This document shows, one piece after another, positions 16,048 through 34,832 of a DNA stretch of 64,000 nt (within the stretch, counting starts at the first letter, position 1; every line of letters starts with the position of its first letter). Source of the stretch: Algibacter amylolyticus (GTDB lineage: Bacteria > Bacteroidota > Bacteroidia > Flavobacteriales > Flavobacteriaceae); contig NZ_JACHGE010000001.1 of the NCBI RefSeq assembly GCF_014202225.1, positions 849,320-913,319 of the forward strand, written 5' to 3'. The notes under the pieces are model-generated. The model saw nothing but the letters and a program-made list of their open reading frames with translations, made no database searches and was not told the origin of the DNA. A program made the translations under genes and the position numbers.

Positions 16048-17886
16048 TTGAAAAATTTAATACGATATTCTCTTTTACTATGTTGTTTTCTAGGAATGCA
16101 AGCTCAAACCGAGTTGGCTACTAAAAAAATTGATTCCTTAAAAATAACGCTATTAGAGAGTAAGGGTCGAGATTCTATTTTTACAGCAAAACAGAATTAC
16201 AAAATAGGTGAGCTTTACAGGAAGTATATATTAAGTGATAGTGCATACTTATATTTCTATAAGGCCGAAAAAATATTTAGAAAATACAATTATAAATTTG
16301 AAACAGCTGCAACCCTTTTTGGTATTGCTGTTTGTCAAACTTACGATAAGGATTATACTGGTAGCGAGTCTACATCTATTGAGGCACTAACCCTATTAGA
16401 AAGTTTAAGTGAAACTAACGATGTTAAAAAATACAAAGCTTATATTAATAATAATTTAGGTATTGTTTTTAATGAACTTGGGCTTTATGAAGAGTCTATA
16501 AAATATCATAAAAGAGCCTTAGAGTTAAAACAGGATTTAGAAGGCAATTTTGAAAGAAGTATAGGGCTGTCTGAAAACAATATTGCGTTTACCTACAAAA
16601 ATTTACAGCAGTATGAATTAGCCTTAAAAGGCTATCAGAAAATTTTATCGAATACTAAATTAATAAATAATTATCCAGATGTGCATGTTTTAGCCTTAGG
16701 GAATTATGCTAATACACTCTATCTTTCTAAAAATTTAAAGCAGCTTCCGGGTCTCTATTTAAAAGCCTTAAATATTTGCGATAGTGTTAATGATACTTAC
16801 AATTCCATTATTATTCTTCAACATTTAGCGGAGTATTACAATGACTTTAATCAAAAAGATTCGGCTAAATATTATGCTTATAAGGCAAAAGGTATTGCCG
16901 AGGCTTACAATAATGATGATTTATTAAAGTCCCTTTTATTAATTTCAGAAATAGAAACGGGTGAATTATCTAATAAATATTTAAAAGATTATATTTCGCT
17001 AAGTGATAGTTTGGAACGTAGTGAAAGATTAAATCGCGATAAATTTGCCAGAATTAGGTACGAAACTAATAAAATAGAGCAGCAAAATATTCAAATTGCT
17101 AAGGAACGTATGTGGCTTTTTATTATATCAGTAGTCATTGTTTTAGCATCATTTTTGTTGTATTTAGTTATTGCTCAGCGAAATAAAAATATTGAATTAC
17201 AGTTTAAGCAAAAACAACAAGAAGCCAATGAGGAAATTTATAACCTTATGTTATCTCAAAATGAAAGTGTAGAAGAAGCTAGAGATTTAGAAAAGAAAAG
17301 AATTTCTCAAGAGCTTCACGATGGTGTCTTGGGGCGCTTGTTTGGTACGCGTTTAAGTTTAGATAGCTTAAATATGAGTAATAGTGAAGAGGCTATTAAA
17401 ACTAGAGAACAATATATTGATGAGTTAAAAATAATTGAGGATGATATTAGAAAAGTATCTCACGAATTAAATACCGATTTTGTGTCGGGTTCTGGTTTTT
17501 CAGATATTATTAAAACTCTAATTGAAACGCAAACTTTAGCCTATAATTTGGATTATGAGTTAACACATGATGATGATATTTCATGGGACTTTGTGGGTAA
17601 CAAAATGAAAATTCATATCTATAGAATTATACAGGAAACACTTCATAATATTTATAAACATGCCAAAGCAAGTGTTGTTGAAATTAGCTTTAAATTAAAA
17701 AATAATGTAATTTGCTTAACGATTAAGGATAATGGATCTGGTTTTGATATTAACCGAGCAAAATCAGGTATTGGTTTAAAAAACATGAATTCTAGAATTA
17801 AAGAATTGAATGGAACTATAAACATAACATCTAAAAAAAACATGGGAACTCAAGTAGTTATTGAGGCTCCTATACTCCAAACCTAA
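16048..17886 (+). CDS. TPR-containing sensor histidine kinase (HisKA_3 type)
   Basis: 612 aa, TTG start at 16048. No ATG gives a signal peptide, and the TTG yields a clean one ending in MQAQ near residue 20. The periplasmic part (about 25-340) has tetratricopeptide-like helical repeats (for example NNLGIVFNELGLYEESIKYH). A single membrane helix spans about 355-376. The cytoplasmic part has a short coiled coil, then HisKA_3 with His424 (ISQELHDGVLG) and a HATPase domain (HNIYKHAKAS, DNGSGFD). This NarX/DesK-like type pairs with LuxR-class regulators, and one follows after 2 bp. The TPR sensor suggests that it binds a peptide or protein ligand. Confidence 0.9.
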   Translation: MKNLIRYSLLLCCFLGMQAQTELATKKIDSLKITLLESKGRDSIFTAKQNYKIGELYRKYILSDSAYLYFYKAEKIFRKYNYKFETAATLFGIAVCQTYDKDYTGSESTSIEALTLLESLSETNDVKKYKAYINNNLGIVFNELGLYEESIKYHKRALELKQDLEGNFERSIGLSENNIAFTYKNLQQYELALKGYQKILSNTKLINNYPDVHVLALGNYANTLYLSKNLKQLPGLYLKALNICDSVNDTYNSIIILQHLAEYYNDFNQKDSAKYYAYKAKGIAEAYNNDDLLKSLLLISEIETGELSNKYLKDYISLSDSLERSERLNRDKFARIRYETNKIEQQNIQIAKERMWLFIISVVIVLASFLLYLVIAQRNKNIELQFKQKQQEANEEIYNLMLSQNESVEEARDLEKKRISQELHDGVLGRLFGTRLSLDSLNMSNSEEAIKTREQYIDELKIIEDDIRKVSHELNTDFVSGSGFSDIIKTLIETQTLAYNLDYELTHDDDISWDFVGNKMKIHIYRIIQETLHNIYKHAKASVVEISFKLKNNVICLTIKDNGSGFDINRAKSGIGLKNMNSRIKELNGTINITSKKNMGTQVVIEAPILQT

Positions 17887-17888
17887 CT

Positions 17889-18563
17889 ATGACCGAAAAA
17901 ATTAAAATTTTAATGATTGATGACCATCCGATGATTATCGAAGGGTATCAAAACACATTGCAATTCACCAAAAAAAGTAATCAAGAGTTAACCATTGATA
18001 TTGCAAATAATTGCGATGAAGCCGTGAAATTTATGGATAAATCTATAGAGGTAGAACGCCCTTATAACCTTTTATTTGTGGATATTAGTTTACCACCGTC
18101 TACCGATGGTTCTATGAGCTCGGGTGAAGATTTAGCCGAATATGCCAGAAAGGTGTTGCCTAATGCGAAAATTATAGTGTTAACTATGTTTAACGAGTCT
18201 TTTAGAATTCATAATATTATTAAAACTATAGATCCAGAAGGGTTTTTAATTAAAAGCGATTTAACGTCTAGAGAATTAGCTAGTGCTTTTCAAGCCGTAT
18301 TATATAATCCGCCTTTTTATAGCGGTACGGTAAATAGTCATATAAGAAAAACAATTGCTACAGATATTGTAATAGATGATAAAAACCGAAAAATTTTACA
18401 TTTACTCTCTCAAGGTATAAAAACTAAAAACTTGGTAACACATTTAGACATTTCTTTAAGTGCTATAGAAAAACGGAAGAAGCAACTTCGAGAAATTTTT
18501 GAAGTTCGCGACGGTCAAGATGAAACACTGCTAGATGAAGCCAGAAAAAAGGGTTTTATCTAA
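17889..18563 (+). CDS. LuxR/NarL-class response regulator
   Basis: 224 aa. Receiver domain: acidic pair DDHP at 10-13, phospho-acceptor Asp65 (LFVDISLPP), Thr in VLTMFN and Lys in LIKSD. The C-terminal helix-turn-helix lies at about 165-215 (ILHLLSQGIKTKNLVTHLDI), somewhat diverged from classic GerE. It starts 2 bp after the kinase stop, so the two are cotranscribed and are almost certainly a cognate pair. Candidate target sites are the TCCCTnAGT repeats upstream and the TTACGGG/CCCGTAA dyad downstream. Confidence 0.92.
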   Translation: MTEKIKILMIDDHPMIIEGYQNTLQFTKKSNQELTIDIANNCDEAVKFMDKSIEVERPYNLLFVDISLPPSTDGSMSSGEDLAEYARKVLPNAKIIVLTMFNESFRIHNIIKTIDPEGFLIKSDLTSRELASAFQAVLYNPPFYSGTVNSHIRKTIATDIVIDDKNRKILHLLSQGIKTKNLVTHLDISLSAIEKRKKQLREIFEVRDGQDETLLDEARKKGFI

Positions 18564-18581: not shown

Positions 18582-18621
18582 AAAAAAAATCAATTTTTTT
18601 TAAAAAAAATTGATTTTTTTT
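18582..18621. terminator. 40-bp perfect AT palindrome, probable terminator
   Basis: AAAAAAAATCAATTTTTTTT is followed directly by its exact reverse complement, ending in a nine-T run. The pairing is AT-rich with one G-C pair per arm. It lies 18 bp after the response-regulator stop and works in either direction. Confidence 0.6.
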
Positions 18622-18661
18622 TGCTCTCGAAACCCTTGCTCCTGCTAGGGTTTACCCGTTG

Positions 18662-18719
18662 CCCGTAAAATAGTTACGGGAAACCCGTAATCTAAACACG
18701 ATAGTTGTGAGTATATTTG
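18662..18719 (+). promoter_or_regulatory. CCCGTAA/TTACGGG dyads and -7 box of a possible small RNA
   Basis: CCCGTAA (18662-18668), TTACGGG (18674-18680) and CCCGTAA (18684-18690) can form two alternative hairpins or serve as protein-binding dyads. A perfect -7 box TATATTTG lies at 18712-18719, but no TTG lies at the -33 position, as expected for an activator-dependent promoter. The right-hand dyad is centred near -43 from the expected start. Confidence 0.45.
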
Positions 18720-18721
18720 TA

Positions 18722-18820
18722 TATCAACACTTCAGAAAAATTAAAGAATACCCTCAATTTTTTGTTGATAATAGCAATTTACATAAACCCTGTGGAGGTG
18801 AGAGACCCACAGGGTTTCTT
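18722..18820 (+). ncRNA. Candidate small RNA, about 95-100 nt
   Basis: Downstream of the TATATTTG box, TATCAACA (18722-18729) can pair with TGTTGATA (18763-18770), and the segment ends in an 11-bp terminator hairpin with a short T-rich tail. No open frame of note lies inside. The layout (regulated -7 box, 5' hairpin, 3' intrinsic terminator) is that of a small RNA placed just after a kinase-regulator pair. Inference from structure only. Confidence 0.4.
18785..18817. terminator. Bidirectional terminator
   Basis: AAACCCTGTGG (18785-18795) pairs perfectly with CCACAGGGTTT (18807-18817). It ends the candidate small RNA on the plus strand and the DUF456 gene (stop at 18825) on the minus strand. 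Confidence 0.75.
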
Positions 18821-19834: not shown

Positions 19835-21847
19835 ATGTTACACTACATTATACAGGTTGTTGCTTTTCAGTTGTTCTTTTTAATTATTTACGATTTGTTT
19901 TTAAAAAAGGAAACCTTTTTTAATTGGAATAGAGCGTATTTGTTAATTACAGCTATAATGCCCTTAATACTTCCGTTTATTAAGGTGTCTAGTTTTAAGA
20001 ATATCCTTTCTCAAGATTACATCATTAATTTACCAGAAATTTTTATTGGTAGCGCATCGCAACACCCTGTAAATCCAATTCCTTTGGAAGGCATAATATT
20101 AAAACAACAGTCGTTTTGGAGTTGGGAACTTCTGTTTTATTTAGGCACAGGAATAGCAACATGTATTTTTATTTTTAAATTAATAAAACTACTAAAATTA
20201 CTTTTTAAAAACCCTAAGTATAAATACGGTAATGTTTTTATTGTTAGTGTGTTAAAAAGCGATATGGCCTTTTCTTTTTTTAATTATATTTTTTTAGGAG
20301 CACAGCTTAACAAAACTAATAGAGACACGGTTTTAAAGCATGAAATGGTTCATGTAAAACAAAAACATACTCTAGATTTATTGTTTTTTGAGCTGCTACG
20401 CATTGCATTTTGGTTTAATCCTTTAACCTATATCTATCAAAATAGAATAATGTCCTTGCATGAATATATTGCCGATGCACAAGTAGTTAAGAATCAAAAT
20501 AAAAATCAATATTATCAAAATTTATTGTCTCAAGTTTTCGATACCAAAAATATTTCATTCATCAATCCATTTTTTAAACAATCATTAATCAAAAAACGAA
20601 TCATTATGTTACAAAAATCGAAATCAAAACAGGTCAAGTTATTTAAGTATGCCTTGTTAATACCTATGCTAATAGCCATGTTGGTTTATACGTCGTGTAT
20701 GGAAACTAATCCCGCTACCACAATAGGTGATACCAGCAATGAGGAGATCCAGCAGAAAACACCATTAATTACTAAAGTAAAAGCCTTAAAGCATCAAATT
20801 GAAATACAAGGAGATGTAAACGAAGCAGAAGAAAGAGGGCTTAAACTGCTTTTAGATGCAGTTAAAGGCGAAGGCTTTAATCAAGCTTTGGTAAATGATA
20901 TTCAAGATTACACCACTAAAGGCTCGCAAACTGATTTAACTAAAAAAATAGCTGAGGTTTTTGAGCAAATTCAAGTACAAGGTGATATCAATGAAAACGA
21001 AGACCTAGAAATAAAAAAGTTACTTGTTTTTACAAGTGATAACGGATTTGAAGATCCGTTTTTTGCCGATATTATAAAACATTTAGATGTTCCTTTTGGT
21101 ATTATAGACCAAGTTCCTGTTTTTCCAGGTTGCGAAGATTTAACAGTAGAGGAGCAAAAAAAATGTATGTCGAAAAACATTGCAATGCATATTAATAAAA
21201 ACTTTAATACTAAGCTAGCCGACAGTCTTAATTTAAAAGGGAAACAGCGTATTAATGTTATTTTTAAAATAAGTATTGATGGAGATGTTGTTGATGTGCG
21301 TTCTAGATCGGAACATCCCGAGCTAGAAAAAGAAGCTATACGCGTTGTTAAAACGCTACCTAGATTTAAACCAGGTGAACATAAAGGGAAGCAGGTTAAT
21401 GTGCCTTATTCCTTACCTATTATTTTTCAAGTTAGCGATGTGCAAAACAAAAAAGAAGATACGGTACTACTCAATGAAGTGCCATTACATAAGGATGTAG
21501 CCATAGCACATCTAGATGAAGTGCCAAATTTTGAATCTTGTGATAATGCTTTAAGTAACGAAGAGAAAAAAGCGTGCTTAGATAAGGGCATAACAACGCA
21601 TGTCTCTAAACATTTTAACACAAAATTGGCCCATAAATTAGGGTTAAATGGAAAACAACGTATTCATGTTATTTTTAAAATTGATGAACATGGTCGTGTT
21701 ATAGATATTCGCTCTAGAGCAGCACATCCAGAGCTAGAGGCAGAGGCTATAAGAGTTGTAAAGTTATTACCTAAAATGATACCAGGAAAGGTTGATGGCA
21801 AACAGGTTGTAGTTCCGTATTCGCTTCCTATTATTTTTCAAGTTTAA
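19835..21847 (+). CDS. M56 (BlaR1-like) membrane metallopeptidase with two C-terminal TonB-type domains
   Basis: 670 aa. Membrane helices in the first about 120 residues, then a zinc peptidase site H169-E170-MV-H173 (KHEMVHVKQ) with the third ligand in HEYIAD (E210), then a further helix near 270-290 (LIPMLIAMLVYTSC). The periplasmic part holds two about 60-residue repeats (IQGDVNEAEERG..., VQGDINENEDLE...) and two tandem TonB_C-like domains (about 424-532 and 560-670), each with a VPxF...C...C start and a (V/I)PYSLPIIFQV end. It has no penicillin-binding sensor domain, so the signal is unlikely to be a beta-lactam. Translationally coupled to the repressor gene. Confidence 0.9.
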   Translation: MLHYIIQVVAFQLFFLIIYDLFLKKETFFNWNRAYLLITAIMPLILPFIKVSSFKNILSQDYIINLPEIFIGSASQHPVNPIPLEGIILKQQSFWSWELLFYLGTGIATCIFIFKLIKLLKLLFKNPKYKYGNVFIVSVLKSDMAFSFFNYIFLGAQLNKTNRDTVLKHEMVHVKQKHTLDLLFFELLRIAFWFNPLTYIYQNRIMSLHEYIADAQVVKNQNKNQYYQNLLSQVFDTKNISFINPFFKQSLIKKRIIMLQKSKSKQVKLFKYALLIPMLIAMLVYTSCMETNPATTIGDTSNEEIQQKTPLITKVKALKHQIEIQGDVNEAEERGLKLLLDAVKGEGFNQALVNDIQDYTTKGSQTDLTKKIAEVFEQIQVQGDINENEDLEIKKLLVFTSDNGFEDPFFADIIKHLDVPFGIIDQVPVFPGCEDLTVEEQKKCMSKNIAMHINKNFNTKLADSLNLKGKQRINVIFKISIDGDVVDVRSRSEHPELEKEAIRVVKTLPRFKPGEHKGKQVNVPYSLPIIFQVSDVQNKKEDTVLLNEVPLHKDVAIAHLDEVPNFESCDNALSNEEKKACLDKGITTHVSKHFNTKLAHKLGLNGKQRIHVIFKIDEHGRVIDIRSRAAHPELEAEAIRVVKLLPKMIPGKVDGKQVVVPYSLPIIFQV

Positions 21848-34725: not shown

Positions 34726-34739
34726 GTTGTGTTGCTAAC

Positions 34740-34832
34740 TGCGTTAGCGATTGTAATGGCATCCTTTTTTTGCTGCCATATATGGCAAAAAAAGATATAA
34801 TGGAAAGCGCGACCCTTGTGGTAACGCCCAAA
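34740..34832 (+). repeat. Dispersed GCGTTA/TAACGC-type repeat, copy D (C/D subtype)
   Basis: 93 bp between the dipeptidase stop and the transporter start. It begins TGCGTTAGCGATTGTAATGG and ends GGAAAGCGCGACCCTTGTGG + TAACGCCCAA. A central GCCATATATGGC hairpin lies in an A/T-flanked loop. It ends exactly at the dipeptidase stop codon (34833). Confidence 0.85.

Follow-up and report, generated by a model that had tools for sequence, protein, structure and literature searches.

The window analysed here, a stretch of 64,000 nucleotides from a genome of the Flavobacteriaceae (the congeners referred to below belong to Algibacter), contains a two-component system whose elements follow each other in the order kinase, regulator, terminator-like repeat, and small RNA (sRNA) element. 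The kinase gene (16048-17886, forward strand) encodes a TPR-containing sensor histidine kinase with matches to Pfam TPR_12, HisKA_3, and HATPase_c. It is the upstream partner of a gene for a NarL-type response regulator (17889-18563, forward strand; Pfam Response_reg), and comparison of the loci indicates that the two genes are kept adjoining in relatives. The regulator, which is the putative activator of the sRNA and has its orthologue directly upstream of the sRNA in relatives, displays weak full-length similarity to the models of MctR, RcsB, and NarL, with scores below their cut-offs. An AT-rich inverted repeat with a T run (18582-18626, forward strand), probably the terminator of the kinase-regulator operon, stands between this operon and the sRNA gene, and a similar repeat is found in relatives. 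The gene on the 3' side of the sRNA is a convergent DUF456 gene that lacks conservation at several related loci. Elsewhere in the window, a gene for a BlaR1-like M56 peptidase, in which the TonB C-terminal domain is matched twice (19835-21847, forward strand), adjoins that of a BlaI-type repressor, and a Flavo-1 RNA (RF01705, 62.9 bits), a widespread flavobacterial motif of unknown function, occupies positions 34733-34818 of the forward strand.

The sRNA is preceded by two dyads and a promoter box. A preliminary description of this DNA had pointed out a perfect dyad, TTACGGG-AAA-CCCGTAA, which is indeed present at 18674-18690 with 7 of 7 pairs, and an additional CCCGTAA. The latter is also present (18662-18668), but it had been missed that it constitutes half of a second, weaker dyad, TTACCCG-TTG-CCCGTAA (18652-18668, 5 of 7 pairs). 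Two dyads in tandem, exactly 22 bp apart, make up the putative operator. For a 17-bp dyad with at most two mismatches, 0.12 occurrences are expected per window and two were found, a number reached in none of 100 shuffles; the 4.35-Mb genome has the exact dyad at this one place only, and a 17-mer dyad of the exact type was encountered anywhere in only one other of the 60 relatives searched. A strict pattern that demands both dyads in tandem was without a match in the genus, since the congeners keep one good dyad only. Downstream of the dyads, the -7 box TATATTTG (18712-18719, forward strand) corresponds to the TAnnTTTG element of Bacteroidota sigma-A and, as had been claimed, is not accompanied by a -33 TTG. 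The flavobacterial sigma-A consensus TAnnTTTG is located at -12 to -5 (PMC9723704). By this measure, the sRNA is expected to start at about 18724, with its dyads centred near -42 and -64; the preliminary description had assigned the proximal centre to about -43.

The predicted transcript has a length of about 100 nt and lies entirely on the forward strand. Folding and conservation define a 5' hairpin at 18722-18770 (start near 18724), with the arms TATCAACA (18722-18729) and TGTTGATA (18763-18770) that had been proposed before, and a loop that reads GAAUACCCUCAA here and UUAAUCCCUCAA in most relatives. A single-stranded linker, AATAGCAATTTACA (18771-18784), highly conserved in the alignments, leads to the 11-bp terminator hairpin at 18785-18820, which likewise agrees with the preliminary description and consists of the arms AAACCCTGTGG (18785-18795) and CCACAGGGTTT (18807-18817), the loop AGGTGAGAGAC, and a T-rich tail. 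The sRNA folds better than its shuffled versions (z -2.4), and long invariant blocks run across it in the alignment of relatives. Covariation in homologues, by which the preliminary description had proposed to judge the RNA, is seen in the terminator stem, where three pairs are changed on both sides (8 cells; 0 of 500 shuffles as high). It is weak in the 5' hairpin, which lacks covariation in the main set because it is nearly invariant, being 97% paired across 57 diverse sequences, a set that is biased in that it was partly selected by the 3' arm of this same hairpin. In two divergent lineages (L251, L253) the helices of the 5' hairpin have changed and still pair, and in two other divergent relatives (L249, L243) the hairpin appears broken. 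The view that the transcript holds no protein frame is borne out in relatives: a short TTG frame in the window was considered as a small ORF and rejected, since stop codons and indels that are not multiples of three disrupt it there.

All nine congeners that were searched contain homologous DNA, as do three other genera. A covariance model based on 13 sequences detected the sRNA in 66 of 299 Flavobacteriaceae genomes, always as a single copy, and the core DNA pattern occurs at no fewer than 119 places in named genomes. Among the matches listed, these belong to Algibacter, Winogradskyella, Psychroserpens, Gelidibacter, Bizionia, Formosa, Hyunsoonleella, Seonamhaeicola, Tamlana, Mangrovimonas, and others, and no name among them is Flavobacterium. 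No Rfam family matches the sRNA locus at the gathering threshold, and relaxed thresholds yielded only weak sub-gathering matches there, none of them relevant. Among the regulator orthologues without a match to the model, most of those with at least about 58% identity are followed by ACGG-N5-CCGT dyads with a TAnnTTTG box downstream, and after the box by a diverged RNA with AATCCCTC and TAATAGC. Behind two regulator orthologues of 53-56% identity (L263, L264), a dyad and a box precede a different common sequence, GTTGGGGGGCCAACAATCAACGGTGAAG, which is perhaps another RNA. In genome G023, a second dyad-plus-box promoter (L438:1500-1680) is followed by a short hairpin-and-terminator transcript unlike this sRNA, and possibly drives another sRNA that answers to the same regulator.

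The sRNA gene is tightly linked to the two-component system, next to whose regulator it is retained in dozens of related genera. In 49 of the 50 loci found by the model, the sRNA is immediately preceded by the orthologous kinase and regulator genes, which share its strand (the exception is L075). For the core pattern, among the matches listed, the regulator orthologue is directly upstream in all 109 evaluable loci, 128-430 bp from the sRNA core; two chance matches without any of these neighbors (L103, L145) and eight loci cut within about 250 bp of the core were left out of this count. Loss of the regulator is clear in two genomes only (G003, G184), where a remnant of the sRNA is still there with a drifted body and the dyads are gone, 1-3 of 7 pairs being left compared to 7 and 5 in the window. 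In the draft genome G322, the regulator copy contains stop codons, perhaps sequence errors, and one dyad is still there. The geometry of the promoter is equally strict: the proximal dyad, counted from its core start, precedes the -7 box by 36 bp in 92 of 93 related loci, and the two dyads are spaced by 22 bp in 49 of the 50 related loci in which both were recognized. When 80 genomes were searched for a TAnnTTTG box preceded at 36 bp by a dyad, a layout that would miss genes under weaker or otherwise placed sites, 28 of the 33 matches were the sRNA gene, and in the window's own genome the sRNA promoter was the sole match. The five matches outside the sRNA gene compare with 13 for the reversed pattern, and the four of them that were inspected, among which is the G023 promoter with its possible second sRNA, had no gene in common. 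Because of the linkage, the rigid spacing, the decay upon regulator loss, and the outcome of the layout search, the sRNA gene looks like the main, and possibly the only, conserved promoter output of the kinase-regulator system.

Some genomes carry the sRNA gene in several tandem copies. In G140 (L240:900-1517), the unit of dyads, box, and hairpin stands three times in a row behind the regulator with diverged bodies, the analysis covering the third copy in part, and at L142:4078-6012 a 294-bp unit with operator, -7 box, and sRNA is repeated 6.6 times in tandem. That the duplicates keep their own operators argues that operator, promoter, and RNA are one functional gene.

Our preferred reading, to which we give a probability of roughly 75%, is that 18652-18820 is a free-standing sRNA gene that is activated by the adjacent regulator and acts in trans by base pairing. 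Its own promoter and a terminator with covariation, in the absence of a conserved frame, mark the element as a free-standing sRNA gene, and the putative regulator-type site at an activating position, linked to the regulator, is what is expected of an sRNA driven by a response regulator. The reading is built on comparison of sequences, namely the conservation of a noncoding RNA, its linkage to the regulator, the geometry of operator and promoter, and their decay together with the regulator; the same conservation, linkage, rigid spacing, and decay lend support to the earlier suggestion that a DNA-binding activator, perhaps the adjacent regulator, switches on the sRNA. According to the mechanism that we propose, the kinase would phosphorylate the NarL-type regulator encoded next door, of which two dimers would occupy the pair of dyads, at about -64 and -42 and on the same face of the helix, and activate the sigma-A promoter with its -7 box and without a -33 element. 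The transcript of about 100 nt would stop at its own terminator and pair in trans with mRNA leaders through the loop of the 5' hairpin, the leader of a PID-CTERM gene being a tentative example. Regulator binding to the dyads, activation, mRNA pairing, the sign of the effect, and the signal are what we infer beyond the compared sequences.

It is unlikely that the sRNA is real but repressed by the adjacent regulator, or that another NarL-type regulator controls the dyads. The sign of regulation cannot come from sequence alone, but dyad centres near -42 and -64 combined with a missing -33 element are typical of activation, and although paralogous regulators exist in several genomes, it is the adjacent orthologue to which the sRNA is linked and with whose loss the dyads vanish. 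We regard it as quite improbable that the region, instead of being a trans-acting RNA, belongs to the 3'-UTR of the mRNA of the regulator or serves the downstream gene as leader or terminator. A separate terminator-like repeat and the sRNA's own conserved promoter precede it, although the region lies 100-200 nt downstream of the regulator; the downstream DUF456 gene, for which the hairpin might act as a terminator too, is convergent and not conserved at several loci, and the tandem copies bring their own operators.

There is also very little to be said for the sRNA being the flavobacterial version of an already described one, for instance of Rfp18 from Flavobacterium psychrophilum. The latter, which is conserved in Flavobacterium, is described as using its third stem-loop for pairing with metalloprotease mRNAs (PMC9723704), whereas the sRNA studied here has two stem-loops, is not matched by Rfam, and has no Flavobacterium among the matches listed for its core pattern. 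The two are alike in that both are conserved in Flavobacteriaceae and have mRNAs of exported proteins as presumed pairing partners; they differ, by description, in the use of a third stem-loop and in that the accessible description of Rfp18 reports no link to a two-component system (PMC9723704). Flavo-1 RNA (RF01705) is a conserved flavobacterial RNA as well, and it does not match the sRNA locus even at relaxed thresholds. A partial literature search found no published description of this sRNA, and it belongs to no Rfam family; it is a new sRNA family, set apart from Rfp18 by description, within the known class of two-component-driven sRNAs.

Two well-studied members of this class resemble the preferred reading, an sRNA gene activated by the adjacent regulator, in their working principle only. 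In the GacS/GacA system of Pseudomonas, a NarL/FixJ-type regulator activates the promoters of RsmY and RsmZ via an upstream palindrome, and these RNAs, which are not linked to gacA, titrate RsmA/CsrA by several GGA motifs. The locus described here shares the NarL-type regulator, the upstream palindrome, and the sRNA as output of a two-component system. Unlike RsmY and RsmZ, however, its sRNA adjoins the regulator, is proposed to pair with mRNA, and lacks several GGA motifs, the single GGA in 18722-18820 being located at the terminator loop (18794-18796). In Vibrio, the response regulator LuxO drives one to several paralogous base-pairing Qrr sRNAs from sigma-54 promoters, with the use of Hfq. 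Here a response regulator would also drive the sRNA, but a conserved sigma-A TAnnTTTG box stands in place of a sigma-54 promoter (-24/-12), and the RNA is unrelated to Qrr. To our knowledge, the regulatory RNAs of Bacteroidota beyond Bacteroides and Flavobacterium are almost unknown, circuits of two-component-driven sRNAs are little known in this phylum, and how Bacteroidota sRNAs pair with their targets without Hfq is an open question. A conserved sRNA family in a major marine group, with a candidate activator, a defined putative operator, and a candidate mRNA target, allows the route that leads from the signal via the RNA to its target to be tested in cultured strains, and provides a kinase-regulator pair of otherwise unknown function with a concrete conserved output.

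The candidate target emerged from the loop UUAAUCCCUCAA, which in most species is the most conserved exposed part of the sRNA. When the complement of this loop was sought in 26 genomes, six had one orthologous place besides the sRNA gene, situated just after a TATATTTG box and about 175 bp before a small PID-CTERM gene. This gene has about 66-86 codons, and its product begins like a signal peptide and contains a proline-rich stretch together with a PID-CTERM sorting domain. Predicted pairing between the sRNA loop and the first 60 nt of the PID-CTERM leader was better than in dinucleotide shuffles (p<0.05) in 22 of the 37 genomes with both parts, which are related to each other and do not represent independent events, and the longest predicted pairing comprises 18 uninterrupted pairs (G001). 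The leader site is absent from the window's own species, from G002, where the loop is changed as well (ACCCUCA for AUCCCUCA), and from several other species with an unchanged sRNA loop. No compensatory exchanges between seed and target were seen in the genomes compared, and hence the 5' leader of the PID-CTERM mRNA is a lead rather than a demonstrated target, and only tentatively assigned to the sRNA. Since another promoter-like box lies near the start codon of this gene, the distal transcript alone would be affected. A broader picture, which we put forward as speculative and somewhat doubtful, is that of a two-component system of marine Flavobacteriaceae whose sole conserved promoter output may be one adjacent sRNA, whose C-rich loop would pair with the extreme 5' end of the PID-CTERM mRNA, and whose dose some lineages may raise by tandem amplification of operator and RNA (three copies in G140; 6.6 units of 294 bp at L142).

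Other candidate targets were rejected. In G002, a target co-varying with the changed loop was considered, but the apparent 12-nt match lies upstream of the promoter of the leader and is not mirrored in G000. With the exception of the PID-CTERM leader, the recurrent matches of the 12-mer AAATTGAGGGAT were confined to coding genes, in sense or antisense, and to a repeat resembling a terminator. The frequency of TGAGGGTAT in the window's own genome was at chance level (12 matches vs. 10 for the reversed control), and none of the leader sites there was conspicuous. The terminator loop at 18796-18806 (GGTGAGAGAC) and the degenerated leader site of the same genome (AGTGAGAGAAAC, L328) have GTGAGAGA in common, in the same sense. 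The proximal promoter of the PID-CTERM gene is preceded by direct TTTCATCGATGTTTTT-type repeats (L304-L309), which resemble a site for a LytTR-type regulator.
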